Assembly: GCA_903938485.1 (NCBI GenBank)
Contig: CAJADF010000087.1
Location: forward strand, 1 to 64,000
Direction: 5' to 3'
DNA: 64,000 nucleotides
Source of the DNA: an uncultured Methylococcaceae bacterium
GTDB taxonomy: Bacteria; Pseudomonadota; Gammaproteobacteria; Methylococcales; Methylomonadaceae
In this document: positions 3,294-53,337 of the stretch, piece by piece
Position numbering within the stretch: position 1 is the first letter of the stretch
How the letters are laid out: each line of letters starts with the position of its first letter
The notes under the pieces: model-generated
What the model saw: only the letters and a program-made list of their open reading frames with translations
What the model was told of the DNA's origin: nothing
Database searches by the model: none
Translations under genes and position numbers: made by a program

Positions 3294-3328
3294 AAAAAAG
3301 CTCTTGTCTTTTGGCAAGAGCTTTTTTA
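3294..3328. terminator. Bidirectional terminator between the TM2 gene and the cold-shock gene
   Basis: The stem AAAAAAGCTCTTG / CAAGAGCTTTTTT has an eight-base loop and A/T tracts on both sides. It lies between two convergent genes (stops at 3263 and 3347) and can end transcripts from both. Confidence 0.9.
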
Positions 3329-3346
3329 TTAAATCTGTTTTAATTG

Positions 3347-3550
3347 TTATTTTGGATAAACATTAACAGCAGTTAAGCCTTTTGGTCCAGATTCGATGTC
3401 AAAAGTCACGGTTTGGCCTTCAGTCAAAGTTTTGAAGCCTTCTCCTTGAATTACAGAGTGGTGAACGAATACGTCTTCGCCGCCATCAGCCGGTGCGATA
3501 AAACCAAAACCTTTAGTGTTGTTGAACCACTTTACAGTGCCTGTTGCCAT
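3347..3550 (-). CDS. Cold-shock protein, CspA family
   Basis: This 67-residue single cold-shock domain is an RNA/ssDNA-binding OB fold acting as an RNA chaperone. RNP1 KGFGFI is at residues 13-18 and RNP2 VFVHHS at residues 27-32, with W8 and the surrounding aromatics present. A strong ribosome binding site (AGGAG) lies before the ATG. About 130 bases upstream hold no gene and may form a leader, as is usual for csp mRNAs. Whether this copy is cold-induced or constitutive cannot be told from sequence. Confidence 0.97.
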
Positions 3551-3680
3551 TTTAAAAAACTCCTAAAAAAAATACTTACGGTTAACACAGAACTACAAAA
3601 TTGATAACCGGGACATCCTCTCGTTCAATATCTATACTCTGCAGATGCAAATTGTACTGCTATTTTGCTTTCGACGCTAT

Positions 3681-11700: not shown

Positions 11701-11800
11701 GTTTTTCAAAAGCAATGATGCCAGAAATGGCAATTGCCAGTGTTGCCCCGATAACCATCAAGCGTTGTTGGAGACAAAAAGCAATGAGGTGTTCAATCAT
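8732..11800 (-). CDS. Heavy-metal RND efflux pump, CzcA-like
   Basis: The 1022 residues form an inner-membrane proton-driven RND pump with twelve expected helices and two large periplasmic loops. Near residue 400, TM4 carries DFGIIVDSAVVLVE, the HME-RND signature with both aspartates and the glutamate needed in CzcA-type divalent-cation pumps (Zn, Co, Cd, Ni). The N-terminal PVQAFPDV and later FENQQRAMKRLA blocks are also typical. It lies third in the operon outer-membrane factor, adaptor, pump, PII-like. Substrate is predicted from the signature only. Confidence 0.95.
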   Translation of the reverse strand: MIEHLIAFCLQQRLMVIGATLAIAISGIIAFEKLPVQAFPDVQNVFVQVVTQYPGQAPEEVEKLISLPIERVMNGLPHLMSMRSVSIFGLSVVTLTFDDDAEDYFSRQQVLERIQNADIPDNAKPQLGPLSTGVGEILRYVVDAKHLPLVEQRALQDWVIEPKIRAVQGVADVVSYGGGVKEYKVAAKPDQLKNYNIDLKQVFDAIAANNSNTGGGYIGYGDEALVVRGIGLLKSADEIGEIVVDTNEGVPIRIKDVADISVGPQPRTGIVAKNQQNDIVEGIVLLIKGRDAVNVLSGVKDKIKELNEFGLPPGVKITPIYDRTELVGHTVHTVEHNMLEGAALIMIILLVFLRRFMAAFLVTLIIPLSLLFAFILVDLGGISANLISLGAIDFGIIVDSAVVLVEAVMVQVTLDLHKNVDLRHLRQTLLVTATEMGRPILFSKAIIIIAFLPIFTFQRVEAKIFSPMAYTLSFALVASMLFSLTFVPAMLTYLLGPRMSESHNPLVEAMEKHYRHLIEWVLKHARTVFITAVATLVLSFMSVRFIGTEFMPKLDEGNIWLTITLPTPVSLTTAKEVEQQVREKLETFTEAKMVLTQLGRPEDGTDPKGFNNLEVLIDLNPKDTWRYKKKDQLIQAMDKELAIFPGILTNFSQVIQDNVEEAISGVKGEIAIKIFGSDLKTLQDRADQITHILASIQGATDVAAEQQAGLAQVMIDIDRTKVSRYGINISDVENVIEMGMGGKSASQFLEGERRFDITLRYEENARNSVAGLENLTVQTPSGARIPLTELATIKINQGASRISREDNMRRIAIKCNLINRDQGSFVAEAQQKVLAQVDLPPGYHVVWSGQFENQQRAMKRLAVIVPISLGLIFILLFWAFMSIKNALLILMNVPFAMIGGILILLATGISLSVSAAVGFIALFGIAVQNGVILVTQLNKLRREGQSLHDAIVNGSVSRLRPVVMTAMMAMLGLFPAALSTSVGSETAKPFAVVIIGGLFTATLLTLTLLPALYRYFAEPDEL

Positions 11801-11821
11801 TATAAAATTCTCTAGGAGGTA

Positions 11822-12976
11822 CTAACGTTTATCGCTACTGGTTTCAACTTCTTCTTCAGAGCGCAAGGTTAGTGCCCCATCTGATACTAAGAGTTCATTT
11901 TCAGTGAGGCCGCTATTAATGACTGCGGTGTCTTTTAAGCGCAAAGCAATTTCAACTTTTTGTTGCTTAAAATTGTTTTCATCTAAGGCGACAAATACAA
12001 AATCTGCGTCACCTTCAGTAAATACAGCCGTTAATGGGATGCTAATGGCTTTGTCCTCAGGTTCACTTTCAACGCTAATAGTGGCGTACATACCTGGTAA
12101 CAGTAGATTTTCAGCGTTGGGTAAATCACAACGCACTTGGATTGAACGCGTTTTATCATCTAACACTTGGCTAATATAGCTAACGGTTGCTGTAAATGTT
12201 TGATTGGGATAAGCAGGAACCGAAACGGAAAGCCGTTGACCGATTTTGATTTTGCTTAAGTTAACTTCAAATAGCGCCATTAGCAGGGTTAATTTTTTTG
12301 TGTCGGAAATCACAAATAAAGGGCTTTCTCTGTCAGGTCTCACTTCTAGGCCGACATTCACATTTTTTTCTACGACTACACCGGCTATAGGCGCGCGTAA
12401 TTTAAAATGCCCATCGTTTTGGTTAGCATCAATATGTAAGTTTTTTAAGCGATCTTTTGCTCGTTGTAGTTCACTGTTGGCTGCATTGAAATCATCTTGT
12501 GCACGTTCTAATTCTTTTTGTGAGGTGGCTTTCCCTGCAAATAACTCTTGTTGGCGAATCGTGTTTTTGTTGGCTAAGATTAAATCAGCTTGCGCTTTTG
12601 CAAAATCTGCTTCTGCGTCAGCTACATCTGGGCTATCGAGTTCAAGTAAATTAGTGCCTGCTGTAATGATAGAGCCTATGGCAATGGGATTAGATATAAC
12701 TCTTCCAGTTACGGGTGAACTGATTCGAGATGTAACACTTTCATTATATGTGATTTTTCCGGTTAAGGGCTCCATCAAGGGATGGGACGTTAATTTTAGT
12801 CTCGCGGTTTTAATATATGACTTTTTGGGGGAGTTAGGGGCTAAATGTACCTCTCCTGGAATTTGTTTAGTACTTTCAGGTATTGTAGGTTTATCAGATT
12901 TATCTGAGCAGGCAGTTATTAATGTTGTTAATAATACTAGTCTGCATATGAGTTTATTGGGGTTATGCGAATACAT
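11822..12976 (-). CDS. RND efflux periplasmic adaptor, CzcB-like lipoprotein
   Basis: The 384 residues start with a lipoprotein signal peptide (LLTTLITAC, Cys23 as the acylation site). A lipoyl/barrel-sandwich half, a coiled-coil hairpin rich in A, E and K (about residues 125-190), the second sandwich half (LRAPIAGVVVEKNVNVGLEV) and beta-barrel domains follow in the order of a membrane fusion protein. It should link the inner-membrane pump to the outer-membrane channel. It lies 21 bases before the pump gene. No histidine-rich metal-binding tail is visible. Confidence 0.93.
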   Translation of the reverse strand: MYSHNPNKLICRLVLLTTLITACSDKSDKPTIPESTKQIPGEVHLAPNSPKKSYIKTARLKLTSHPLMEPLTGKITYNESVTSRISSPVTGRVISNPIAIGSIITAGTNLLELDSPDVADAEADFAKAQADLILANKNTIRQQELFAGKATSQKELERAQDDFNAANSELQRAKDRLKNLHIDANQNDGHFKLRAPIAGVVVEKNVNVGLEVRPDRESPLFVISDTKKLTLLMALFEVNLSKIKIGQRLSVSVPAYPNQTFTATVSYISQVLDDKTRSIQVRCDLPNAENLLLPGMYATISVESEPEDKAISIPLTAVFTEGDADFVFVALDENNFKQQKVEIALRLKDTAVINSGLTENELLVSDGALTLRSEEEVETSSDKR

Positions 12977-13006
12977 CTGTTTCTCTATTTTTACTATGCG
13001 TTAATA

Positions 13007-14356
13007 TTAGTTATTGAGTAATTTAGGCGGCTTAACTAGCTCATCGGTCTTATGTGTGTCTGGCTCAATACCTAAAGACTTTTCTAAATCATAATAAGCA
13101 TTGGCTCTATTAATTTGAGCTGCGTAATAGTCATGCATCACATTTTTGTAACTACGTTGCGCTTCAATAAAATCTAGTACACTGGTGGCACCTTTGCTAT
13201 AAGCCAGTTCAGCACTTTTTCTGACAGTCATGGCGTCAGCTAGTAGGCCTTCTTTAAAACGCTGGACAATTTTGTCTGTACTTTTCCAAGTAGCTAAAGC
13301 GCTAATGACATCGTTGCGTATAGCGAGTTCAGTTTGTTCAGCGATTAGCTGATTTTGATTTAGGTTAACTTGGGCTTTATCTGACTCACCTTTGTATTGA
13401 TAAAATATCGGTATAGGCACGCTAAATCCTACAAATCCAGAGTTAAGTGCGTTATTGCTTGGGTCTCTGGCATAACCTGCGGTTATGGTTACATCAGGGT
13501 ATTTTAAACGTTGTGCTAGTTCTAGTTGTTTGTTGGCCTGATCCGCTCTTAATTTATCTGCTTGTAAATCTGGGCGTTGTTTTAAAGCTAGATTTACTAA
13601 TTCGTCTTGGTTTTGGGATGGGTTAATAGCTTTAACTTCTGGCCATTCTTCTTTAGCCTCAAATTGCAAGCTTTGAGCTGGCCATCGCAGCACTACCGCC
13701 AACTCGGCGTGTGCCAAACTCACTGCTGTTTGAGCATTATCCAGGTCTGATTCGGCTTTCATAGCCTCCATTTTGACTCGGAGAAAATCAGACTCAGATA
13801 TGTCACCACTGCTTAAGCGCAAGCTATTAGCTTTAGTTATAATTTTATAATGATCAACGATTTCTTGAGTTAGCTCGAGATTTTTTTGCGACTGTAATAA
13901 TTGATAGTAGGTATTTCGTATTAAATTAGTGAAAATACGCACTGCGTCTCTAAAATCAGCTTCTGCTGCTTGCGTGGCATAGACGCTACTTTGTTCTCGT
14001 AGGCCGCGTTTGCCAGCAATTTCTATTAGTTGATTAAAGGTGTAATATTCAGAGGGACCACAAGAAACATTGATGTTGTGATTGCAACCAGTAGCGCTAG
14101 CGCCTTTATTGAGATTTGTATTGCTGAGTTCACCTATTTGAAAAGTGACAGTTGGGTTCGGGATGGCTGAAGCAACAATAGATTCAGCAAATGATTGGTT
14201 AATGTTATACCGAGCCGCTATTAAATCTATATTGCGTTGATAGAAGATTGAAATAATATGATCAAGCGAGATTTCCTGAGCTTGGCTTTGAAAGCTGATC
14301 AGAATTAGGCTAAAAAGTAATTTTCTAATTGTTGTTTTAAATAGTCTGAGCGTCAT
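13007..14356 (-). CDS. TolC/CzcC-family outer-membrane efflux protein
   Basis: This 449-residue protein has an N-terminal signal peptide (cleavage probably after FQSQA). Two repeated halves of long alpha-helices (for instance YATQAAEADFRDAVRIF and IAEQTELAIRNDVISAL) form the periplasmic tunnel, with short beta segments for the barrel. It is the first gene of the minus-strand operon and has its promoter in the divergent region 14357-14712. A poorly conserved insert, GASATGCNHNINVSCG near residue 75, carries two cysteines that could form a disulfide. Confidence 0.93.
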   Translation of the reverse strand: MTLRLFKTTIRKLLFSLILISFQSQAQEISLDHIISIFYQRNIDLIAARYNINQSFAESIVASAIPNPTVTFQIGELSNTNLNKGASATGCNHNINVSCGPSEYYTFNQLIEIAGKRGLREQSSVYATQAAEADFRDAVRIFTNLIRNTYYQLLQSQKNLELTQEIVDHYKIITKANSLRLSSGDISESDFLRVKMEAMKAESDLDNAQTAVSLAHAELAVVLRWPAQSLQFEAKEEWPEVKAINPSQNQDELVNLALKQRPDLQADKLRADQANKQLELAQRLKYPDVTITAGYARDPSNNALNSGFVGFSVPIPIFYQYKGESDKAQVNLNQNQLIAEQTELAIRNDVISALATWKSTDKIVQRFKEGLLADAMTVRKSAELAYSKGATSVLDFIEAQRSYKNVMHDYYAAQINRANAYYDLEKSLGIEPDTHKTDELVKPPKLLNN

Positions 14357-14712
14357 TAAATTAAACGATGGAGGTGAGGTTATTAGGTTTAGTATCAGGG
14401 CTAACTTTATAATAATTCTAATGATTGGGTGTTGTGATAGTATTATAACTATGATTAATTTACAGCTATTTTTGTGCCAATCTTTAAATCCACCATTAAT
14501 TCATAGTATTAGCAGTAAAGTTTTTGTTTTTAGTAAGATTAATACACGTCTAGTGGTTTAAATAAACGTATTTATAGGTTTTTTTAAACCAGTCTTTAGA
14601 TGGCGTTATTAAATAGTTTTTTGACTTGATATCCGTTTTTTACTTATCGTTAATGAAGTTAAGCACACTAAGGTTTGCTTGAATTATTAATGTGCCCAAT
14701 CGAGTATATATT
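14357..14712. promoter_or_regulatory. Divergent control region of two metal-efflux operons
   Basis: About 356 bases of AT-rich DNA separate the two operons. No regulator gene lies here. A possible plus-strand promoter is TTGACT (14621-14626) with a weak -10 TATCGT (14645-14650). I found no clear MerR- or CueR-like dyad and no terminator. Confidence 0.4.
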
Positions 14713-16023
14713 ATGTTTGTTTTAAATATTCTGAATAATCAATTGTTAGCGAGTTTTTCTAGGCCTTTTGTTTGTTTGTGTTCCTTATTGGCGTTTTTGC
14801 CAAATACGGCTGGTTGTCAGGGAGCTACTAGCGAAATCGATGTTAATTTTCCTAAAGTGGGTCATCTTGATCCGATGGTTATTGATACTAGTTTGACGTT
14901 AGCAAAGCTAATCGATTTAACGATGCAAAAATATCCAGATGTGACTTGGTTGACTGCTTTAGAAGAAGAGGCTGTCGCGCTGGCTGATCGTAGCCAAAGT
15001 TGGACTGCAGGGGCTTCTCAGACGACTATTGGATATCAGTCTATTTCTACTTTTAAATTAAATTATGGGACTGCAAATGTGCAGGTGCCTTTATGGAATT
15101 TAGGGCAGCGAGATGCTCAAAAAAATCTAGCTAATAAAGCTGAAGCCAGCGCTGGTTCGCAAACTACCCGTGTTAAGTTAAGCGTGGCGGGTTTAGTTAG
15201 AGCGACTTTGTGGGACGTTGCTCTAGCCAATATACGTTACGAACAAGCTAAAGCAGAGTTGTCGGTTTATGAAAAATTGCTTGTTACCATTAAGCGTCGT
15301 GTTGCGGCGGGTGATTTACCGCGTGCGGATGATTTATTAGCACAAACTGAATTGTTACAAAAACGCTCAGCTTATACTTTGGCGGAAGCCGAATTAATGC
15401 ATGCTCGTAAGCGTTATAGTTCAATTACTCAAACTAATAAAATCCCCTCAAGTTTTGAAGAGTCTTTAGCTCCTATAAAAGAGTTAACTCAGAATCACCC
15501 GAGTTTGATTGCTTTGAATAGTCAGATTGATGTTAAACAAGCTGAGTTATCAGCAATTAAGAGTATTGGTTCTGGGCAAACAAATGTCATTGCCGGTCTA
15601 TTGAGTGATGAAGGTCACGATTATCGTAGCAATAAAGCTGAGTTCTTTAATGTCGGCGTTATTGTGCCGTTTGGAGGAAGTGCACATATTCAACCGCAAA
15701 TAGCTGCAATTAATGTAGAGTTAAATAAGTTAATAGCCGAGCGCGAACAATTGTATCGAGATTTAGAGCAAGTTCATCATGAGGCGGAACATAATTTAGA
15801 AGTCAACAAAGTTGAATTGGATAACGCCAATGAACAAAGAAAAGTTTCAGAGCAATTGTTAAGTATGACAGAACTCGCTTTTTCGGTGGGTGAAATTGAC
15901 TTAATGGATTTGTTAAAAATTCAGTCCAGAACGCAACAAGCTATTTTAACAGCTAGAGAGCGGGTCGTTATGATGCAGCGCGATAAAGCACTTTATAATC
16001 AAGCAGTAGGAATTATGCCGTGA
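14713..16023 (+). CDS. TolC-family outer-membrane protein of the second RND system
   Basis: From the ATG at 14713 the protein has 436 residues; an in-frame GTG at 14692 is an alternative and neither has a clear ribosome binding site. The N-terminus looks like a signal sequence (FVCLCSLLAFLPNTAGC). Long helices rich in A, E, Q and L follow, with the duplicated tunnel-helix layout (QAKAELSVYEKLLVTIKRRV and NEQRKVSEQLLSMTELAF), the latter half being the usual TolC-family pattern before L-M-D-L-L-K-I-Q. Its stop overlaps the next start (GTGA), so translation is coupled. Confidence 0.88.
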   Translation: MFVLNILNNQLLASFSRPFVCLCSLLAFLPNTAGCQGATSEIDVNFPKVGHLDPMVIDTSLTLAKLIDLTMQKYPDVTWLTALEEEAVALADRSQSWTAGASQTTIGYQSISTFKLNYGTANVQVPLWNLGQRDAQKNLANKAEASAGSQTTRVKLSVAGLVRATLWDVALANIRYEQAKAELSVYEKLLVTIKRRVAAGDLPRADDLLAQTELLQKRSAYTLAEAELMHARKRYSSITQTNKIPSSFEESLAPIKELTQNHPSLIALNSQIDVKQAELSAIKSIGSGQTNVIAGLLSDEGHDYRSNKAEFFNVGVIVPFGGSAHIQPQIAAINVELNKLIAEREQLYRDLEQVHHEAEHNLEVNKVELDNANEQRKVSEQLLSMTELAFSVGEIDLMDLLKIQSRTQQAILTARERVVMMQRDKALYNQAVGIMP

Positions 16024-17120
16024 AAAAAATAGCACAAACTTTTGCAGGTTTTATTTTATTAATGGGTTTGGCTGTTGCGGACATGGGAAATAATTTGCAA
16101 CTTTCACAAGAACAATTGGATAACTTAGGTGTTAGTTTAAGTAAAATTGAATTGGCCAAGAGTTTTACTATTTTAAATGCACCGGCTAAGGTTGTATTAC
16201 CTGCGGGTAACGAATACAGCGTGAGTTCGTCACAAGCTGGCTTAGTCGTTAAGATAAATGCCTCTATGGGCGATACGGTAAAAAAAGGTCAGGTATTGGC
16301 ACAGATTAATAGTCCGGAATTATTGGCGAATCAGCGTTTATATTTAAAAGCACTAAATGATTTGCAATTAAATTTATTAGCTTATGATCGAGATAAACAA
16401 TTAGTCGCCGAGGGTGTTATTGCAGAAAGGCGTTGGCAAGAAACGAGTAGTCAATACAATACATTTGTTTATGAAGCCAATGAGCTTAAACAATTATTAG
16501 AAATATCAGGGATGACAGTGGGAGAAATAGATCAACTTGCTAAAACGCATCAACTAAGTGGTCAACTCAATGTGCGAGCACCTATTTCAGGTGTTGTTAT
16601 GGATCGTTCTGTTCTGGTTGGAGAGCGTATTGACATACAAGCACCCTTATTCAAAGTTGCTTTGTTAGATGAGTTATGGCTGGAAGTTAATGTTCCCCAT
16701 GAACGGATAGATAGTATCAAGTTAGGTGACTTAGTTCTAATTGATAATAGTTCTGTCAGCGCTGAGATTATTCTAATGGGTCAAAGTGTTAATGCAGATA
16801 ACCAGACAATACAAGTTAAGGCAAAGGTTCGTGAAAAGCACCCTGATATACGAACAGGTGAAACTATTAATACACAAATTATAAAAGTTTTAAAAACACC
16901 GGCTTATAAGGTTCCGAATACAGCTGTTGCACAATATGAAGGTAAGTTTTTTGTGTTTGTGCGAAATTCTTCTGGTTTTTTGATTCGTCCAATTACAGTC
17001 ATTGGTAAGCAAGGTGATGAATCTATTATAAAGGGAGACTTTTCAGGGGAGGAAGCGATAGCGATTAAAGGCGCCGTCGTCCTAAAAGCACATTGGTTAG
17101 GTTTGGGGAGCGCAGAGTAA
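16020..17120 (+). CDS. RND efflux periplasmic adaptor of the second system
   Basis: The 366 residues start at a GTG that overlaps the previous stop. A signal peptide (ILLMGLAVA) is followed by barrel-sandwich halves (GLVVKINASMGDTVKKGQVL, then VRAPISGVVMDRSVLVGER), a helical hairpin between them, and beta-barrel and membrane-proximal domains. It is cytosol-synthesised, exported, and should bridge pump and channel. Its TAA overlaps the pump ATG (TAATG). No metal-binding motif is obvious. Confidence 0.93.
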   Translation: MKKIAQTFAGFILLMGLAVADMGNNLQLSQEQLDNLGVSLSKIELAKSFTILNAPAKVVLPAGNEYSVSSSQAGLVVKINASMGDTVKKGQVLAQINSPELLANQRLYLKALNDLQLNLLAYDRDKQLVAEGVIAERRWQETSSQYNTFVYEANELKQLLEISGMTVGEIDQLAKTHQLSGQLNVRAPISGVVMDRSVLVGERIDIQAPLFKVALLDELWLEVNVPHERIDSIKLGDLVLIDNSSVSAEIILMGQSVNADNQTIQVKAKVREKHPDIRTGETINTQIIKVLKTPAYKVPNTAVAQYEGKFFVFVRNSSGFLIRPITVIGKQGDESIIKGDFSGEEAIAIKGAVVLKAHWLGLGSAE

Positions 17121-20100
17121 TGGCGGCTTTGATCCGTTTTGCGCTGAGTCAGCGACTATTAATCATGATAGTCGTCGTGTTATTGTGTGGAGGAGGTTAC
17201 CTTGCTTTTAAAAATATCCCTATTGATGCCTTTCCAGAAGTTTCTCCGACGCAAGTAAAAATTATTGTTAAAGCGCCGGGCATGACGCCTGAAGAAGTTG
17301 AATCCAGAATTACTGCGCGTATAGAAGTTGAATTATTAGGTATTCCTCATCAAGTGATGTTGAGGGCTATCGCAAAATACTCGTTAACGGATATCACAGT
17401 TGATTTTAAAGAAGGCACTGATATTTATTGGGCGCGTCAACAAGTGGCTGAACGATTAAATGGTATTTGGACTAATTTACCTGCGGGTGTTGAAGGGGGT
17501 ATTGCTCCGATGACCACACCATTAGGTGAAATGTTTATGTTTACCATTGAAGGTGGTGATTTAAACTTGATGGAGCGCAGAGATTTATTAGATTGGGTTA
17601 TTCGTCCTGCTTTAAGAACGGTGCCAGGTGTGGCTGATGTAAATTCTTTGGGCGGATTAGTTAGAAGTTTTGAAGTTGTTCCGGATCATATTCGATTAGC
17701 TGGGCGGGGCATAGGTATTGATAAATTAATACAAGCTTTGCAGAATAATAATCGTAATGACGGTGCCGGCCGGATGAGTGACGGCGAGGAAGCCTTAATT
17801 GTTAGAGCGGATGGCCGCATTAAAAATTTAGAGGATGTCAGTAGCATTGTGGTTGATAACCAAGTCGGTTCGCCCATTACGGTAGCTGATGTTGCAGAAG
17901 TTAAAATAGGCGCTTTGACACGCTATGGTGCGGTTAGTAAGAACGGCAATGGCGAAGCCGTTACGGGTTTGGTTTTAAGTTTACGCGGTGCTAATGCAAG
18001 ACAAACGATTGAGGGTCTTCAAGCTAAACTTAAGCAAATCAGCTCCGCTTTTCCTAAAGGGGTGGAGGCTAAGGTTTTTTATGATCGCGGTAATTTAGTT
18101 AATAAAGCTGTTGATACCGTTTTACATGCTTTATTAGAAGCGATTGCGTTAGTCGTTATTTTGCTCGTCTTGTTTTTGGGTAATATACGAGCGGCTATAG
18201 TGGTGGCTTTGGCGTTGCCTCTAGCGGCTTTATTTACCTTTATCATGATGCATTTCATGGGTATGTCAGCTAACTTGATGAGTTTGGGCGGTTTAGCGAT
18301 TGCTATTGGCATGTTGGTAGATGCAGCCGTAGTAGTGGTGGAAAATCTAATCACCCATTTAGCTCATGTTGAAAAGGCTAAGCGTTTACCCAGATTACAC
18401 ATGATTTATCGAGCCAGTTGTGAAGTAGCGGGTTCAGTGACCTCAGGTATTTTAATTATTATCATCGTGTTTTTACCTTTACTAACCTTACAAGGTTTAG
18501 AAGGTAAATTATTTACCCCAGTTGCCTTAACGATTGTTTTTGCTTTAAGTGGATCATTGGTCTTGTCACTTACCGCTATCCCAGTGATAGCCTCTTATCT
18601 GTTAAAAGAAGTTTCCCACGAAGAACCTTGGTTACCTAGGCAATTACAAAAGGCTTATCAGCCTTTGTTGTTATGGTGTTTAGCAAATACTAAAAAACTG
18701 TTTAGTGGTGTTGGTGTTTTATTGGTTTTGACTTTTTTTATTTTTACTCGGATCGGTAGCGCCTTTATGCCAACTATGGATGAAGGTGACATTATTGTGC
18801 AGTTAGAAAAATTGCCCTCTATCACCTTAGAGCAGTCGGTGGCTTTAGATGGGCAAGTACAAAAAAATCTGCTTAAAAATATTCCTGAGATAGAAGCCGT
18901 GGTATCGCGTGTCGGTTCTGATGAGTTGGGATTGGATCCGATGGGCTTAAATGAAACGGATACTTTTTTAGTATTAAAGCCTAAAGATCAATGGCGGATG
19001 CCTAGCAAAGATGCTTTGATTGAAGATATTCGTAAAGTTATGGAGCAAACACCGGGTATCGCTTTTGGGTTTACGCAGCCAATTGAAATGCGTGTTTCAG
19101 AAATGTTAACAGGTACGCGAGGCGATGTGGCGGTTAAATTATTTGGTTCTGATTTAGCCGTTTTAGATCAAAAAGCCATTGAGATAGCCGATATTTTGAA
19201 ACATATTGTGGGCTCCTCGGATGTGTTTTCTAAACAAAATAATGGCATGCAATTTTTACAATTAACTATCGATCGCTTAGCCGCTGGCCGTTTAGGTTTA
19301 GATGTCGATGGTATAGAAACTTTATTACGTGCACAGATAGAGGGCTTAAATTTAGGTGTGGTACAAGAAGGGATCAAGCGTACGCCACTTATTTTAAGAG
19401 GTAAAAGTAATATGGCTAATTTTGAAAATTTGCAAATTACTTTACCTAATGGTCATCATATTCATGTGACTGAAATAGCAAAAATAGAAAAGGTTGAGGG
19501 AGTGGTTTCAGTGGGCAGGGAGCGTGGTCAACGTTTTGTGGTGGTGCGTAGTAATGTTCAAGATAGAGATTTAGTCGGTTTTGTTGAAGAGGCACGCAAA
19601 GCCGTGAATGAAAAAGTGAAGTTACCAATTGGATATACAGTTGAGTTTGGTGGTCAATTTGAAAATCAACAACGCGCGGCAGCAACTTTATCTATTGTTG
19701 TTCCAGTCGCTTTAGGATTGATCTTTTTGTTATTGTTTTCTACATTTGGATCAGTGCGTCAAGCGGCGTTGGTGTTATCAAATATTCCCTTGGCGATGGT
19801 AGGTGGTGTGTTCGGCTTGTGGGCCTCTGGCGAATATTTGTCTGTACCGGCTTCGGTAGGCTTTATTGCTTTATTAGGTATTGCTGTATTAAACGGCGTA
19901 GTGATGGTGAGTTATTTTAATCAGTTAAAAGCGTCTGGCATGGCTATGCTAAAAGTGGTGACACTAGGATCAGCTCGGCGATTAAGACCGGTTTTGATGA
20001 CGGCCAGTATCGCGGCGTTTGGCTTGATTCCCTTATTATTCGCGACCGGCCCTGGTTCAGAAATTCAAAGACCCTTAGCTATCGTGGTAATTGGTGGCTT

Positions 20101-20179
20101 GGTATCTTCAACGTTCTTAACACTTTTTTTACTGCCCATTTTATATAAACAGTTCGGCGTTGCTAAGGAGTCAGTGTAA
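17120..20179 (+). CDS. Heavy-metal RND efflux pump, CusA/HME type
   Basis: The ATG at 17120 (TAATG junction, GGGGAG upstream) gives 1019 residues; an in-frame TTG at 17093 would overlap the adaptor gene. The TM4 signature is LAIAIGMLVDAAVVVVEN: one aspartate is kept but the first is replaced by alanine, as in CusA-like and related HME pumps and unlike the DFG...D form of the minus-strand pump. Thus the two systems probably export different metals, Cu/Ag-type versus divalent cations (inference). The remaining RND blocks, FENQQRAAATLS and G-S-A-R-R-L-R-P-V-L-M-T, are intact. Confidence 0.94.
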   Translation: MAALIRFALSQRLLIMIVVVLLCGGGYLAFKNIPIDAFPEVSPTQVKIIVKAPGMTPEEVESRITARIEVELLGIPHQVMLRAIAKYSLTDITVDFKEGTDIYWARQQVAERLNGIWTNLPAGVEGGIAPMTTPLGEMFMFTIEGGDLNLMERRDLLDWVIRPALRTVPGVADVNSLGGLVRSFEVVPDHIRLAGRGIGIDKLIQALQNNNRNDGAGRMSDGEEALIVRADGRIKNLEDVSSIVVDNQVGSPITVADVAEVKIGALTRYGAVSKNGNGEAVTGLVLSLRGANARQTIEGLQAKLKQISSAFPKGVEAKVFYDRGNLVNKAVDTVLHALLEAIALVVILLVLFLGNIRAAIVVALALPLAALFTFIMMHFMGMSANLMSLGGLAIAIGMLVDAAVVVVENLITHLAHVEKAKRLPRLHMIYRASCEVAGSVTSGILIIIIVFLPLLTLQGLEGKLFTPVALTIVFALSGSLVLSLTAIPVIASYLLKEVSHEEPWLPRQLQKAYQPLLLWCLANTKKLFSGVGVLLVLTFFIFTRIGSAFMPTMDEGDIIVQLEKLPSITLEQSVALDGQVQKNLLKNIPEIEAVVSRVGSDELGLDPMGLNETDTFLVLKPKDQWRMPSKDALIEDIRKVMEQTPGIAFGFTQPIEMRVSEMLTGTRGDVAVKLFGSDLAVLDQKAIEIADILKHIVGSSDVFSKQNNGMQFLQLTIDRLAAGRLGLDVDGIETLLRAQIEGLNLGVVQEGIKRTPLILRGKSNMANFENLQITLPNGHHIHVTEIAKIEKVEGVVSVGRERGQRFVVVRSNVQDRDLVGFVEEARKAVNEKVKLPIGYTVEFGGQFENQQRAAATLSIVVPVALGLIFLLLFSTFGSVRQAALVLSNIPLAMVGGVFGLWASGEYLSVPASVGFIALLGIAVLNGVVMVSYFNQLKASGMAMLKVVTLGSARRLRPVLMTASIAAFGLIPLLFATGPGSEIQRPLAIVVIGGLVSSTFLTLFLLPILYKQFGVAKESV

Positions 20180-38505: not shown

Positions 38506-38656
38506 TTGGCCTTGTGGATTCAGGTTGGCGTGCCGGTTATCAGGGGGGGTATGGGTTAATGATAACGGAATAAGGGCTAATTAGTCTTAGTGCATTCAAA
38601 GTGTATATGAAATAATATAGAATTCCAGTATTGAATTATTTTTGATGGAGTGGATA

Positions 38657-41372: not shown

Positions 41373-41919
41373 CTATTTTGTTTGTTGTATTGTTTTAAAT
41401 TTTTTGCCTATTATTGCATATGGTGATGATTTTTCTGCAGAAGTTAGTCACGCTGAGGTTGTTCTTCAAAATGATGACTACGTTTTATCAGCTCAGATTA
41501 ATTACCATTTAAGCGAAAAAGCAAAGACTGCGCTGCAAAATGGTGTGCCTTTATATTGGCATTTTGAAGTTAAATTACAACAAGTTAATGGTTTTTTTGG
41601 AGCTAAGTCTTGGGTTGTAGTTGGTAAACACTATAGGCTTCAGTATCATGCTTTATTAAACATGTATCGCCTTAAAAATGAAGATGAGGGCGTGGATCAT
41701 AATTTTTCTAGCTTAGCCTCGGCTTTAGAGTTAATGTCCGAAGTGACAAATTTACCTATAATTAAAAAATCAGAACTTGATTCCGAACACCAATATACGT
41801 GTTTAGTTAAATTAGCCTTTGAGCGTGATGCTCTTCCTTTGCCGCTGCGACCTTTTGCATACATTGATCCGCAATGGTATTTATCAAGTGATTGGACCGA
41901 ATGGCCACTGAAAAAATAA
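41350..41919 (+). CDS. DUF4390 exported protein
   Basis: From the ATG at 41350 the protein has 189 residues; in-frame starts at 41323 and 41338 would only lengthen the overlap with rsmB. A signal peptide (NYFVCCIVLNFLPIIAYG) precedes a beta-rich domain of unknown function with FEVKLQQVNGFFGAKSWVV and a C-terminal PFAYIDPQWYLSSDWTEWPL typical of DUF4390. Its position between rsmB and a NtrY-like kinase is conserved, so it may act in the periplasm with that kinase (inference). Confidence 0.88.
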   Translation: MHLLRSYNYFVCCIVLNFLPIIAYGDDFSAEVSHAEVVLQNDDYVLSAQINYHLSEKAKTALQNGVPLYWHFEVKLQQVNGFFGAKSWVVVGKHYRLQYHALLNMYRLKNEDEGVDHNFSSLASALELMSEVTNLPIIKKSELDSEHQYTCLVKLAFERDALPLPLRPFAYIDPQWYLSSDWTEWPLKK

Positions 41920-44048
41920 AACCACCGGTAAATTTATCGGTACTGATTCTATTTAGTTTGATTTTGTTATCATTGCAATTGATGAGTTCTGCAATGCAGG
42001 AGTCTTCAGAATTAAGTGCGATGTATTCTTGGTTGCTATTATTTAACACCTTGGGTTCAGTGGTGTTGTTAATTTTAGTAGGGGCTAATATCTATGCATT
42101 AGTGCAACACACTAAAAGACGTGAGGCAGGTTCAAGATTAACTGCGCGTATGGTGTCATTATTTGTGGTGTTGGCATTAGCACCTGCTGTTATTGTTTTT
42201 TATTTTTCTATGCAGTTTTTGCATCAAGGAATTGATAGTTGGTTTAACGTCGAAATAGATCGGGCTATGGAGGATGCCTTAGAATTAAGTCAAGCTTCTT
42301 TGGATCAGCGGATGCGTTGGCAGTTGCGTCAAACAGAACATTTGACTGATAAATTAGAGGATGTGTCAGAAAATGCCGTTACCTTAGAAATTGAAAATTT
42401 ACGAGAATTGTCTGGGGCGACAGAGATCACATTGTTTTCTAAGCAAGCTCATATAATAGCTTCTAGCAGTGTAAATCCGGGGGATATTTTACCCAGTTTG
42501 CCAGATGAACATGTTTGGTTGCAGTTGCGACAGAATGGTTTTTTTGTGGCCTTAGTACCGCAACGTGAACATGAATTAATGGTGCGAGTAATTGTTACTG
42601 TTAAATCTATTGAATCAAAATATTTACAAGCTTTATATCCCGTACCCGTTAGGATTGCTGACTTGGCTGATTCGGTTGAATTTGCTTCTGCACGTTATCA
42701 AGAGATGAGTTACCTGAGGAACTCCTTGAGAATGAGTTTTACCTTAGCTCTATCTTTGGTTTTATTAATGAGTTTATTGGCTGCGATTTGGGTGGCTTTT
42801 ATAAGTATTCGTAATATTACTGCACCTGTAAAAGAGTTGGTTAAGGGTACCAAAGCAGTTGCATCTGGTCAGTATGATCAGCAATTACCGGTCTTGGCTC
42901 AAGACGACTTAGGTTTCTTGGTGGAGTCTTTTAATGAAATGACCCACAGAATTGCGCAAGCGCGAGATGAGACTCGTAAAGTAGGTTTTGAGGTCGAGAA
43001 TCAACGGGCTTACTTAGAAACTATCTTGGGTAACTTAACGGCGGGTGTGATCAGTTTTGACGAGGATTATAAAATTCGTACGGCTAATCAAGCGGCTTAT
43101 CGGATTTTTAAGGTACATGTTAATCAATTTGTTGGGCGGACTCTGTTAGAGTTAGTTGAGAGTTATGTTGAGCTTACTGAGCCACTTAAATCTATACAGT
43201 ATTTATTAGAAAATGCAGATGATATTTGGCAACAGCGAATAGCGTTTTTGGGACCTAATGGCAGGCAAGAATTACTTTGTAGAGGGACACCTTTATTTTC
43301 TCAAGAGGGTTTTAGGGTTGGTTCGGTTGTTGTTTTTGATGATGTTACTGATTTGATTCAAGCACAAAAAAATGCGGCTTGGGGGGAGGTTGCTCGGAGA
43401 TTGGCGCATGAAATTAAAAACCCTTTAACTCCCATTCAGCTTTCAGCAGAGAGATTACAGCTTAAGTTGGCGGAAAAGTTAGATAGTACTGATGCGGCAA
43501 TTTTGCAACGATCAACACGCACAATTGTGCAACAAGTAGAAGCGATGAAGGAGATGGTTGACGATTTTTCGGAATATGCTAAGCCTTCAAAAAAACAAAC
43601 TGTGGCGATTGATTTAAATCTCTTAATTCAAGAAGTATTAGCTTTATATGCCTTAAAGGCCGGTGTTAAGTTTAGAGCGCATTATCAGTCTGGTTTGCAG
43701 TTAATTAATGGTGATCCGGTTAGTATAAGGCAGGTTTTGCATAATTTAATAAAAAATGCATTAGAGGCAGTCGGCATAGAAGGGTTGATTGAAATTAATG
43801 TACATAGAATACTTAAAAATAATGCGGATTTTCTTGAAATAGCTCTCTATGATAACGGCACGGGTATTAAAGATGATCAGCTTGAAAAAATTTTTGAGCC
43901 TTATGTGACAACAAAGTCTAAAGGAACAGGATTAGGTCTAGCAATAGTAAAGAAGATAATAGAAGATCATGGCGGCGCAATATGGGTCGATACTGGTCGT
44001 AAGGTGGGAGCGGGTTTTATTATTCAGCTTCCTGCGTGTAACTCTTAA
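41901..44048 (+). CDS. NtrY-like membrane sensor histidine kinase
   Basis: From ATG 41901 the kinase has 715 residues and overlaps the DUF4390 gene by 19 bases. Membrane helices flank a periplasmic region in the first 300 residues; a HAMP domain (NITAPVKELVKGTKAVASG) lies near residue 310, then a PAS domain, a HisKA box with phosphoacceptor His in RRLAHEIKNPLTPIQ, and an ATPase domain (NLIKNALEAV, then GTGLGLAIVKKI). It pairs with the NtrX-like regulator that follows by 15 bases. The signal is unknown; NtrYX systems respond to nitrogen, redox or envelope state in other species. Confidence 0.93.
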   Translation: MATEKIKPPVNLSVLILFSLILLSLQLMSSAMQESSELSAMYSWLLLFNTLGSVVLLILVGANIYALVQHTKRREAGSRLTARMVSLFVVLALAPAVIVFYFSMQFLHQGIDSWFNVEIDRAMEDALELSQASLDQRMRWQLRQTEHLTDKLEDVSENAVTLEIENLRELSGATEITLFSKQAHIIASSSVNPGDILPSLPDEHVWLQLRQNGFFVALVPQREHELMVRVIVTVKSIESKYLQALYPVPVRIADLADSVEFASARYQEMSYLRNSLRMSFTLALSLVLLMSLLAAIWVAFISIRNITAPVKELVKGTKAVASGQYDQQLPVLAQDDLGFLVESFNEMTHRIAQARDETRKVGFEVENQRAYLETILGNLTAGVISFDEDYKIRTANQAAYRIFKVHVNQFVGRTLLELVESYVELTEPLKSIQYLLENADDIWQQRIAFLGPNGRQELLCRGTPLFSQEGFRVGSVVVFDDVTDLIQAQKNAAWGEVARRLAHEIKNPLTPIQLSAERLQLKLAEKLDSTDAAILQRSTRTIVQQVEAMKEMVDDFSEYAKPSKKQTVAIDLNLLIQEVLALYALKAGVKFRAHYQSGLQLINGDPVSIRQVLHNLIKNALEAVGIEGLIEINVHRILKNNADFLEIALYDNGTGIKDDQLEKIFEPYVTTKSKGTGLGLAIVKKIIEDHGGAIWVDTGRKVGAGFIIQLPACNS

Positions 44049-44063
44049 CTGTCACGAAATATT

Positions 44064-45425
44064 ATGAATATAAATGCCCCTCGAATATTAGTAGTAGATG
44101 ATGAGCCAGATATTCGTCGATTGGTCTGTGAGATACTTGAGGACGAAGGATATCAAGTGGCTATGGCAAAAAATGGTCTTGAAGCGCGGCAATTAAAGAT
44201 TTCTCATCGGCCTAATTTAATTTTACTTGATATTTGGATGCCTGATACTGATGGTGTCTCATTATTGAAAGAATGGGTATTAGAAGATGAGTTACTTTGT
44301 CCTGTAGTTATGATGTCAGGACATGGATCTGTTGAGCTCGCTGTTGAGGCAACACGATTGGGTGCTTATGATTTTTTGGAAAAGCCGTTGTCATTGGCAA
44401 AACTGCTGCTAATAGTTGAGCGAGCTATAGAGGCGGGTCATCTGCAAATTGAAAATGCTGGACTTAAAAAGCAGTTGGTTTCTGATATGGAGCCAGTAGG
44501 TAAAAGTGCGGCCGTAGCGAGAATCAAAGATCAGTTAAAACGTTTAGCACAACACGATACGCGGGTTTTGTTTTGTGGTGAAGCAGGTGTAGGTAAAGAA
44601 TTATATGCGCGATATTTACATAGCAATAGTCCGCAACGTAAAGGGCCTTTCATTGATGTTGCAGTAGGAAGTATTTCGCCGGAAAACTCAGCAGTAGAGT
44701 TTTTTGGAAAAGAATCTCTGGGTAAGGTGTATCCGGGGTTGTTGGAAAGAGCCAATAAAGGCACATTGTTTCTTAGTGAAATAGGTGGTATGGATGCAGA
44801 AACGCAGTTGCGTTTATTAAGTGCTTTGGAGTCTAGTTCTTTTTTGCGTGTAGGTGGAAGTGAGGCTGTAAGAGTTGATGTAAGAGTTATTACTTCCACA
44901 AGAGTGTCTATGGATGAAGAGATTCGTTCTGGTCGTTTTAGACAGGACTTGTATTACATGTTGAACGAGGTGGCTTTTAATATTCCGCCGTTGCGTGAGC
45001 ATAGTGAAGATGTGCCTGGCTTATTGAGCTTTTATGTCGATTATTTTGTTACTCAAGATAAGTTGGCATTCCGTAAATTTTCGATGGCTACACAAAATTT
45101 TTTACGTAACTACAGTTGGCGTGGAAATGTTAGAGAGTTAAAAAACTTGGTTCAGCGGTTAATGATTTTAGGTGTGGGTGAAGAAATAGAGTTGGAGGAA
45201 GTGAGGTCGGCTTTAGGTTCAGTTGTAGTTGATGTGGCTTTAGTTGCGGCAGTGCCTGAATTTTTTAATCTGCAATTGAAGGACGCACGCGATCATTTCG
45301 AAAAAGCGTATCTGGAATATCATTTTGAACGGACAGGTGGCAGCGTGGCAAAATTGTCCGCGGCGGTTGGTATGGAAAGGACTCATTTATATCGAAAATT
45401 ACATTCTTTAAATATAAAATTATAA
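44064..45425 (+). CDS. NtrX-like response regulator lacking the sigma-54 loop
   Basis: The 453 residues comprise a receiver domain with phosphoacceptor Asp56 (LILLDIWMPD), an AAA+ domain with Walker A GEAGVGKE near residue 173 and a Fis-type helix-turn-helix at the C-terminus (GGSVAKLSAAVGMERTHLYRKL). The GAFTGA loop is missing: the corresponding region reads EFFGKESLGKVYPG. The Walker B segment reads GTLFLSEIG instead of the usual GTLFLDEIG. It therefore probably cannot drive sigma-54 open-complex formation and may act on sigma-70 promoters or only bind DNA. Confidence 0.92.
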   Translation: MNINAPRILVVDDEPDIRRLVCEILEDEGYQVAMAKNGLEARQLKISHRPNLILLDIWMPDTDGVSLLKEWVLEDELLCPVVMMSGHGSVELAVEATRLGAYDFLEKPLSLAKLLLIVERAIEAGHLQIENAGLKKQLVSDMEPVGKSAAVARIKDQLKRLAQHDTRVLFCGEAGVGKELYARYLHSNSPQRKGPFIDVAVGSISPENSAVEFFGKESLGKVYPGLLERANKGTLFLSEIGGMDAETQLRLLSALESSSFLRVGGSEAVRVDVRVITSTRVSMDEEIRSGRFRQDLYYMLNEVAFNIPPLREHSEDVPGLLSFYVDYFVTQDKLAFRKFSMATQNFLRNYSWRGNVRELKNLVQRLMILGVGEEIELEEVRSALGSVVVDVALVAAVPEFFNLQLKDARDHFEKAYLEYHFERTGGSVAKLSAAVGMERTHLYRKLHSLNIKL

Positions 45426-51276: not shown

Positions 51277-53337
51277 TTAAAAGGCGGTTAGGGGAATATC
51301 TAAGATAAAACTTATTACGTTTTTTTTAAACTCTATATCAATAGAGCCTCGGTGTTGTTGGGCAATATTGCGAGTTAAATAAAGTCCTAGTCCGGCCCCA
51401 GCCACATTGTTTTTTTCGCTACCTCGGTAATATTTATTAAATATTTTTTGTTTATCGAGGATAGAAAAATTATCAGTAATATTACTAACATTAAAGCGTA
51501 AAGTTGATTTGTCTATAGTTTCAATATCAAAAGTAATCTCGGTTTGTGGTGGACTGTATTTATAAGCATTTTCAATTAAATTATTTAAAGCCACTTGTAA
51601 TAAACTAAAGTCCCCTTGTCCTATTTCATCGTAATTAGAGCAGTTTATTTTGATGATTTTGCTGTTAAGATTATCAATGCTTATCGACATTAAGCAATTG
51701 CCAGAGTCTATGTCATCGGGTAAATTTAGATTGTATCTTGAGAGGATTGCATCAACTAAGTCATAGACTTGCCAAGTTTCGATGATTAATTGCACTTCAC
51801 TGTGTGGGTTAAAGCGTTTATTAACCAATATGGTATTCAATAAATTATCGAGTCGCTTAATTGCTTGCCTGATATTTTGGTGTCGATTAATGGTTTCAGT
51901 TTGTTCGGGTAAGGTTTCAAGTGCTAAGCTTTGTACAATAGAGTCAATAATTGCCAGTGGTGTTTTAATCTCATGACCTAACATAGAGATAAAGTTAATA
52001 AGCTCATTTCGTGACTCATGTTGTTTGGTTGTTTCTAAAGCAGATAATTTTTTTATTTCTAAATTTGTTTGTTCTAGTTCGGTTGTAACCTTAGCAATGA
52101 ATTTAACTAAACGAGAAACGACCCGTGTATGGTTATTCGCATAGGGGTCATAATTGGTATTGGTATTGGTATTGGTATTGGTATTGGTATTGGTATTGGT
52201 ATTGGTATTGGTATCACCTTCTTTAAATGCGGCGACTACCATTGCAGAGTTAAGTAGTTCTATTTGTGAAGATGGGCCTGCATATTCACCGTAAGTATAA
52301 AAACCAAAAGTGGGTGCAATATCTTGAAATGGTAAAGTTTCAAGGTTAGATTCATTCTGCATTAAAAAACGTCGACATCCACAGGAGTATAAGAAAATGG
52401 CTTCTGGATCAAGCTTTCTCAGTTCTTCTTGAACAGTTTTGGCTTTATCGATGATAAGTTTAGGGTCGCCGTAACCAAGTTTAAATGTTTCACCAGTTTT
52501 AATGTCGGCTACAAATTGTAGGCCCTCATCGGCTGTAATGTTAACAGGAACACGAGCAATAATTTTTTGATTGCGTTCAAGTAATAAAGGAAATTCTAAG
52601 GAGTTAATAAAGAAGTCATCATCATTATTAATGCCTAGATAGTTTTTGTAGATATCAAATGCCGGTTTATTATCAATAGTATTAATCACAGTCCCTTCAG
52701 AGCTAGTTATTGTCATAGCTTTGCTTAAGGGTAGCCAACCTAAATAGTTTCTAATTTCAACTTGTAAGGAGGGTCCGGTAAAGGCCACTATTATACAAGC
52801 AGAGTCATATATATCTTCCCCCATAAACACATTGGATTGATATGACAAGCTATAATCCCCCGCCCCACCACCAAATAAAATACATTGCTGATGGTCAATA
52901 TTTATAGATTTGAATAAATTTTTGATGTTAAGACTAATGGATGTGCTTAGCAATAAAACAGCTTTAATAGTCTCCGTAGTTTTGTTTAGGTAGTTGTTGA
53001 TGGACATTCCTATTTTATCTTCATGACCTTGTGAGCCTGAAATAAGCGTCGCATATAGTGTTGCATCTCGGAAAAAAGAAAAGCCAATAATAGTTTGTGA
53101 TGTTACTGAGAGACCATTAACAATTTCACCAATCGTGCTGGCTCCGATAATTATGGCGTTAGGAATGATGTTTAAAATGTTGGCATTAAAACTTATGATG
53201 GATTCAGAATTGATTGTTGCGCAATATATTTGTACTAACACGGCGCTATTGTGCTTTGCATTTAAACAAATCTCTGGAGATTTAAGAATCTCTTTAAGCG
53301 TGTCTATATCATTGACGATATAAGAAAAATGTTTCAT
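51277..53337 (-). CDS. FIST-domain histidine kinase with Asn-Thr repeat linker
   Basis: The 686 residues have no clear membrane helix. Residues 30-225 are a FIST N-domain and 230-370 a FIST C-domain, a sensory pair thought to bind small ligands such as amino acids. Residues 376-395 are ten Thr-Asn pairs encoded by a perfect hexanucleotide repeat. A coiled stretch, the HisKA box with phosphoacceptor His (FISMLGHEIKTPLAI) and an ATPase domain (NLIENAYKYSPP, then GAGLGLYLTRNIA) follow. GGA lies six bases before the ATG. Confidence 0.92.
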   Translation of the reverse strand: MKHFSYIVNDIDTLKEILKSPEICLNAKHNSAVLVQIYCATINSESIISFNANILNIIPNAIIIGASTIGEIVNGLSVTSQTIIGFSFFRDATLYATLISGSQGHEDKIGMSINNYLNKTTETIKAVLLLSTSISLNIKNLFKSINIDHQQCILFGGGAGDYSLSYQSNVFMGEDIYDSACIIVAFTGPSLQVEIRNYLGWLPLSKAMTITSSEGTVINTIDNKPAFDIYKNYLGINNDDDFFINSLEFPLLLERNQKIIARVPVNITADEGLQFVADIKTGETFKLGYGDPKLIIDKAKTVQEELRKLDPEAIFLYSCGCRRFLMQNESNLETLPFQDIAPTFGFYTYGEYAGPSSQIELLNSAMVVAAFKEGDTNTNTNTNTNTNTNTNTNTNYDPYANNHTRVVSRLVKFIAKVTTELEQTNLEIKKLSALETTKQHESRNELINFISMLGHEIKTPLAIIDSIVQSLALETLPEQTETINRHQNIRQAIKRLDNLLNTILVNKRFNPHSEVQLIIETWQVYDLVDAILSRYNLNLPDDIDSGNCLMSISIDNLNSKIIKINCSNYDEIGQGDFSLLQVALNNLIENAYKYSPPQTEITFDIETIDKSTLRFNVSNITDNFSILDKQKIFNKYYRGSEKNNVAGAGLGLYLTRNIAQQHRGSIDIEFKKNVISFILDIPLTAF
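52153..52212. repeat. Ten perfect hexanucleotide repeats inside the FIST kinase gene
   Basis: ATTGGT occurs ten times without error (as ACCAAT on the coding strand, Thr-Asn). Because the unit is six bases, gain or loss of copies changes the linker by two residues and keeps the frame. Confidence 0.97.

Follow-up and report, generated by a model that had tools for sequence, protein, structure and literature searches.

NtrX from a Methylococcales bacterium lacks the GAFTGA loop and three ATPase residues of sigma-54 activators

The NtrX protein encoded in the window (the whole 64,000-nucleotide stretch of DNA that was analysed, from an uncultured Methylococcaceae bacterium) is built like a sigma-54 activator and lacks both the GAFTGA loop and three residues of the ATPase site. 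With good confidence, we read it as a sigma-54-independent, phosphorylation-controlled DNA-binding regulator, in which the AAA+ domain would serve as a nucleotide-binding scaffold or dimer module. The gene lies directly behind that of a histidine kinase, and its product is NtrX, the partner of the upstream NtrY kinase.

41892..44048, plus strand: ntrY, histidine kinase partner (Pfam NtrY_N, HAMP, PAS, HisKA and HATPase_c all present)
44064..45425, plus strand: ntrX coding sequence, 453 residues (ORF call; nearest solved structures Brucella NtrX 5m7n, 5m7o and 5m7p)

The ATG start codon of ntrX is located 15 bp downstream of the ntrY stop. The gene order is def-fmt-rsmB-(198-residue ORF)-ntrY-ntrX, with ORFs resembling rplM and rpsI behind ntrX; the designations def, fmt, rsmB, rplM and rpsI come from a reading of the ORF translations. 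The original prediction of an NtrX-like regulator is borne out. The ntrY gene, with its NtrY_N domain, adjoins ntrX, Brucella NtrX is the nearest solved relative, and the protein groups with NtrX and not with NtrC, in an 88-row clade apart from the GAFTGA activators (SH-aLRT 100; quick LG+G4 tree with the L1 columns removed). The domain set is that of NtrX, with a receiver bearing the phospho-acceptor Asp, an AAA+ domain and a Fis-type HTH. NF051870 is the best match among all NCBIfam families at 438.1 bits, which is below its curated cut-off of 600 bits; our guess is that this cut-off fits closer relatives of its seed. The closest named relatives of NtrX belong to the Methylococcales, including Methylobacter sp. 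KS41 at 85%, which makes the host very probably a methanotrophic member of this order.

The domains and motifs of NtrX are listed below, with counts in the own-family proteins (window protein and 34 relatives) and in 12 canonical activators. The positions that we take to be the glutamate switch, the arginine fingers and sensor II have their roles from work on PspF and NtrC1.

44079..44417, plus strand: receiver domain, residues 6-118, with Asp13, phospho-acceptor Asp56 and Lys107 (Pfam Response_reg 8-118, 95.5 bits; D13, D56 and K107 in 35/35 own-family proteins)
44496..44993, plus strand: AAA+ core of sigma-54-activator descent, residues 145-310 (Pfam PF00158, Sigma54_activat, 145-304, 140.6 bits; own-family dN/dS 0.057)
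44577..44600, plus strand: Walker A GEAGVGKE, residues 172-179, kept (K178 in 35/35 own-family proteins)
44661..44663, plus strand: Ala200 replacing the glutamate-switch Asn (N in 12/12 canonical activators; own family A33, V1, S1)
44697..44738, plus strand: replaced L1 loop EFFGKESLGKVYPG, residues 212-225, without GAFTGA (span five residues shorter; modelled strands 216-218 and 221-223)
44760..44786, plus strand: altered Walker B GTLFLSEIG, residues 233-241, Ser238 for Asp, Glu239 kept (own family S24, G10, T1 of 35; E 35/35)
44931..44963, plus strand: arginine-finger segment GRFRQDLYYML, residues 290-300, Arg293 kept, second finger = Met299 (R293 35/35; position 299 L27, M7, I1 in the own family, R 12/12 canonical)
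45126..45146, plus strand: sensor II segment NVRELKN, residues 355-361, kept (R357 in 35/35 own-family proteins)
45264..45422, plus strand: Fis-type DNA-binding C-terminus, residues 401-453 (HTH_8 411-446, 20.7 bits, just below the 22-bit cut-off; lowest regional dN/dS, 0.023)

Set against a canonical sigma-54 enhancer-binding protein, NtrX has an AAA+ domain of the Sigma54_activat family (140.6 bits), no GAFTGA in L1 and an incomplete ATPase site, the complete site being defined as Walker A, switch Asn, Walker B DE, two Arg fingers and sensor II. Three of the seven ATPase residues are gone (Ala200, Ser238, Met299), and Lys178, Glu239, Arg293 and Arg357 are kept. The span from ELFG to the conserved Ala measures 19 residues, versus 24 in the 12 canonical activators, and EFFGKESLGKVYPG stands in place of the GAFTGA loop. 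This replacement and the Asp-to-Ser change in LFLSEIG (Ser238) were already described from the sequence and are confirmed here, as is the retention of Walker A (GEAGVGKE), the receiver (Response_reg, 95.5 bits) and the Fis-type end, whose HTH_8 match of 20.7 bits falls below the cut-off. The C-terminal helices in the structural model and the Brucella NtrX alignment, which extends to the end of the protein, lend further support to the HTH, and the AAA lid matches its Pfam family at 60.7 bits. The description of the activator module as broken holds in part: the damage is real and wider than first listed, with the switch Asn (Ala200) and the second arginine finger (Met299) also gone, but it is not a recent lesion, as the loss is found throughout the family and the class.

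GAFTGA occurs in none of the 35 own-family NtrX proteins. The Walker B Asp, the switch Asn and the second-finger Arg are each likewise absent from all 35, and the four kept residues are each present in 35/35; all seven ATPase residues are thus found in 0/35 own-family proteins versus 12/12 canonical activators, which all carry GAFTGA. Because none of the 35 has GAFTGA, the Walker B Asp, the switch Asn or the second-finger Arg, chance and sequencing error are excluded. The identical losses in 35/35 proteins also rule out a recent lesion. NtrX-level matches (E < 1e-120) are present in 192 of 201 family genomes; the other nine have weaker matches only (1e-73 to 1e-59), and seven of these nine genomes are at most 90% complete.

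The loss extends over the class. Among 115 class NtrX proteins of other families (93 chosen among the matches listed and 22 from genomes with weaker first hits, namely 24 loci minus L279 and L289, which repeat genomes already counted), GAFTGA is found in none and the full set of seven ATPase residues in two. The Walker B Asp is present in 40, the switch Asn in 15 and the second-finger Arg in 31, and the better kept positions are the Walker A Lys (93, with Arg in 20), the first finger (88) and sensor II (85). The receiver Asp56 is retained in 114, and one gene is truncated (L299). GAFTGA is also missing from all 80 named loci, which were found via receiver and HTH patterns, so that their receiver and HTH conservation holds by construction. 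In the 93 chosen proteins, a test for correlated loss gave p = 0.008 for the Walker B Asp with the second Arg finger and p = 1.0 and 0.30 for the other two pairs; kinship is ignored in all three values, and we draw no conclusion from them. The original prediction had proposed an alignment across relatives to decide whether the loss is ancestral, and across relatives GAFTGA is found in 0/35 own-family and 0/115 class proteins and the Walker B Asp in 0/35 own-family proteins. We take the loss to be probably of long standing and a trait of NtrX in general, not a peculiarity of this locus. As read from these sequences, the loop was probably lost before the class NtrX diversified, and the catalytic residues would have eroded later with receiver and DNA-binding functions kept.

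The graded way in which catalytic residues disappear across the class could also be taken to mean that ntrX is decaying and that its AAA+ domain is functionless. We give this explanation very little credence, as it is opposed by the open frames, by a putative AAA+ fold that is modelled with confidence, and by own-family dN/dS values of 0.02-0.06 in the receiver, AAA+, lid and HTH regions. The own-family values are 0.044 (receiver), 0.057 (AAA core), 0.030 (L1), 0.032 (lid) and 0.023 (HTH), and the two linkers reach 0.071 and 0.181 (38 pairs of 42 sequences with pS < 0.6; the pairs are not independent). Purifying selection on the AAA+ domain is strong within the own family. Across the 115 class proteins, conservation is higher in the receiver (0.752) than in the AAA core (0.556), which ranks last among the four domains compared. 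In 12 NtrC-like proteins, which differ from the 12 canonical activators of the motif comparison, the order is the opposite (AAA core 0.831, receiver 0.656), the two sets being unmatched in size and depth.

Beyond the class, a phylum-level search covered 120 genomes, and 40 stretches retrieved after it yielded three further NtrX clades. The tree (107 rows, quick LG+G4, loop columns removed) holds every second one of the 93 class proteins (47/93) and 8 of the 35 own-family proteins, and its NtrX clade is separate from the canonical activators. Three of the 14 outgroup rows fall on the wrong side and the outgroup does not form one side of any branch; long branches are flagged there. L263, L266, L268, L272 and L274 lie outside the NtrX clade and L273 lies with NtrC-type rows, and all six are excluded from the clade counts. 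A 12-member clade, taken as alphaproteobacterial, has no GAFTGA and retains all seven ATPase residues in 10 of 12 proteins. No GAFTGA is found in an 8-member clade either, with all seven residues in 3/8. In a 9-member clade, a [GD]AFxGA loop is present in 8 of 9 proteins, exact GAFTGA in one and all seven ATPase residues in seven. On the simplest reading of these sequences, NtrX would descend from a loop-bearing activator, and loop loss and ATPase-residue loss would be separable. A broader picture, which we put forward tentatively and hold to be possible though doubtful, is that NtrX may be a whole lineage of disarmed sigma-54 activators, whose members would grade naturally from those with the loop, through those without it but with an intact ATPase and those that have lost the ATPase and kept the nucleotide site, to those with a ruined AAA+ domain. 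In the methanotroph family, the AAA+ domain may then be a Walker B mutant fixed in nature (D to S/G, Glu kept) that would hold ATP without turnover, and NtrX would act on sigma-70 promoters as a phospho-switch that is ATP-bound or senses energy.

The AlphaFold2 model, built from 49 sequences, has a mean pLDDT of 85.4 and a pTM of 0.58, at which the domain arrangement is uncertain; the loop is modelled as two short strands. The top Foldseek matches to the model are the three Brucella NtrX entries. In the structural aligner, NtrC1 (1ny5) gives a Z of 34.9 with an rmsd of 7.1 over 379 aligned residues, and Brucella NtrX a Z of 34.4 with an rmsd of 10.5 over 432. Canonical NtrC-type activators such as NtrC1 (1ny5) share the fold and the domain order of the window NtrX, whereas GAFTGA and the full set of seven ATPase residues are retained in the 12 examined. 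NtrC1 itself has GAFTGA and all seven ATPase residues.

Brucella abortus NtrX, the top sequence match at 322.5 bits, shares the domain order receiver, AAA+, Fis-type and is without GAFTGA in the alignment; unlike the window protein, it retains Asp-Glu in Walker B, the switch Asn and the full pair of arginine fingers. The structure paper on this protein in J Mol Biol of 2017 reportedly describes the absence of GAFTGA, the binding of ATP and no ATPase activity. VpsR acts with sigma-70 polymerase, and the AAA+ domain of Neisseria gonorrhoeae NtrX is probably far more eroded than that of the window protein. According to the PDB titles, Brucella NtrX was crystallised with ATP (5m7n) and with ADP (5m7p), the third entry being 5m7o. 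VpsR (7v2b) resembles the window protein as a receiver-AAA+ protein of the activator type, but matches at only 116 bits and has c-di-GMP bound (PDB title).

Caulobacter supplies two further comparisons, both given here as far as the available text of PMC10274813 goes. Its NtrX is without GAFTGA. Its NtrC also has no GAFTGA and regulates sigma-70 promoters; the difference is that this loop loss is an eight-residue deletion in the NtrC of that genus, which is a different protein from the NtrX of the window. In the same portion of that source (PMC10274813), ATP binding and hydrolysis are predicted to play a role in the GAFTGA-less NtrC, which, together with the presence of Lys178, Glu239, Arg293 and Arg357 in 35/35 own-family proteins, would suit an AAA+ domain that still hydrolyses ATP with an unconventional site arrangement and brings about changes at sigma-70 promoters, as proposed for Caulobacter NtrC. 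We regard hydrolysis of this kind as unlikely in NtrX, given that the Walker B Asp, the switch Asn and the second Arg finger are lost in 35/35 own-family proteins and that only 2 of the 115 class proteins have all seven residues. In gonococci, as related in the accessible parts of the sources, NtrX controls norB and aniA (PMC12697260) and the rpoN-like product is without its DNA-binding motifs (PMC6755734); this NtrX resembles ours in regulating genes where the rpoN-like product is likely inactive (PMC12697260, PMC6755734).

The window genome encodes rpoN and six GAFTGA activators, and a sigma-54 DNA-binding domain is found in 229 of 276 class genomes. Among the 47 genomes without this domain, four (G362, G236, G276 and G472) have an NtrX match below 1e-80 among the matches listed, a count obtained by comparing the two genome lists by eye, with 27 of the 47 identified by subtraction; the same four also have no sigma-54 core-binding domain. 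G362 is a convincing sigma-54-less host of NtrX and the sole such case in the data. This genome is 98% complete in about 30 contigs and keeps ntrY-ntrX; neither of the two sigma-54 domains searched for is found in it, nor any PF00158 match besides NtrX at E <= 0.001. Its ntrX follows ntrY, and the NtrX (L227) has a receiver and HTH that read through and a ruined AAA+ domain, with PF00158 at 51.6 bits and Walker A reduced to GEPGCEFL, without the Walker A Lys. A trkA-like ORF, read by eye, comes after ntrY-ntrX at L227. The other three candidates were set aside, as their rpoN absence probably reflects assembly gaps. Such gaps are likely because G276 and G472 have 13 and 12 PF00158 matches, weak ones included, G270, a congener of G472, has rpoN, and G236 has a GAFTGA activator. 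Sigma-54 is present in G563, G566 and G574, which were checked as well. In the one-contig genome G305, an rpoN match at C1:2199223-2199699 contains one in-frame TAA and may be a broken sigma-54 gene; the ntrX frame of this genome is open (its NtrX is L056).

Loss of sigma-54 by the host was considered as the cause of the AAA+ changes and rejected, since rpoN is present here and L270 and L271 have a ruined AAA+ domain in genomes that have sigma-54; ruin of the AAA+ domain therefore does not track sigma-54 loss. An indirect link to sigma-54 would be conceivable if NtrX formed mixed rings with a canonical activator such as NtrC, or bound beside it, and so tuned sigma-54 promoters. The rpoN gene and six GAFTGA activators of this genome, the strong conservation of the own-family AAA+ domain and first arginine finger, and the assignment of NtrX, from its domain content, to the sigma-54 regulators of Acidithiobacillia (PMC12194929, in the part available) would accord with such a role. 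We find it improbable, because NtrX persists in G362, where no sigma-54 or other activator was detected, and conservation of the AAA core in class NtrX falls below that of the other three domains compared. The sigma-54 independence suggested by the original prediction thus gains support; for this organism, with its rpoN and six GAFTGA activators, we infer it.

GAFTGA is needed for remodelling of sigma-54 polymerase, which is established in the biology of bacterial enhancer-binding proteins. Because its GAFTGA loop is absent, NtrX should be unable to carry out this remodelling. In the sigma-54-independent reading, NtrY would phosphorylate Asp56 in the receiver, as the intact pair suggests, and the Fis-type end of phosphorylated NtrX would bind promoters used by the housekeeping sigma factor, where NtrX may activate or repress by contact or occlusion. 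ATP would most likely be bound and not hydrolysed, because the protein still has Walker A, Glu239, sensor II and the first arginine finger but no Walker B Asp, switch Asn or second finger. The Arg found at the Walker A Lys position in 20 of the 115 class proteins counts against ATP binding. The AAA+ domain would then be a scaffold or a nucleotide-binding dimer module.

The region upstream of the gene run contains a sigma-70-type sequence.

38595..38623, plus strand: TTCAAA-N17-TAGAAT ahead of def, with which the run begins (the window and 6/12 relatives have the exact form)

Upstream of def, the form TTCAAA-N17-TA[GA]AAT occurs both in the window and in 8 of 12 relatives. Positions 38595-38623 are likely the promoter of the def-to-ntrX run, whose genes would be co-transcribed, and the sequence is consistent with housekeeping expression of the run. 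GG-N10-GC pairs, which are sigma-54-like, occur in 7 of the 13 def-upstream stretches at no fixed place in those checked, and a pattern of this shortness is expected by chance. In some bacteria, sigma-54 promoters are predicted ahead of ntrY-ntrX (PMC12316311, in the text available). R. sphaeroides NtrX binds cell-envelope operons and is an activator at most of its named direct targets, as given in the accessible part of PMC7240162. The NtrX site pattern proposed there, GCA-N9-TGC, is absent from up to 260 bases upstream of def and 60 bases inside it in the window and the 12 relatives.

NtrX is labelled sigma-54-specific or sigma-54-dependent in the available portions of PMC9409073 and PMC12194929, and for class NtrX this label is very probably wrong. 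The protein belongs, on good support, to a known kind and builds on what has been described for NtrX of Brucella and Caulobacter; the loss of the Walker B, switch and finger residues and the graded series are what is added. No account of a graded, class-wide loss in NtrX was found in the literature searched, which was mostly outside subscription journals and available in part. The series indicates that a receiver and a DNA-binding end can outlast the motor between them, and it supplies natural variants for probing what a non-hydrolysing AAA+ domain still does.

Elsewhere in the window, positions 51277-53337 on the minus strand encode a protein of 686 residues that combines FIST N and C sensor domains with an ATPase end of the histidine-kinase type. 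A defence-system check of six other window proteins gave no convincing match, the three PDC-M43B matches to 51277-53337 lying on the ATPase end. Two RND pump genes are located on diverging strands at 8732-14356 (minus) and 14692-20179 (plus), and OEP and HlyD partners are confirmed for the pump at 8732-14356. A cspA thermoregulator RNA is found at 3294-3625 on the minus strand (109.1 bits).
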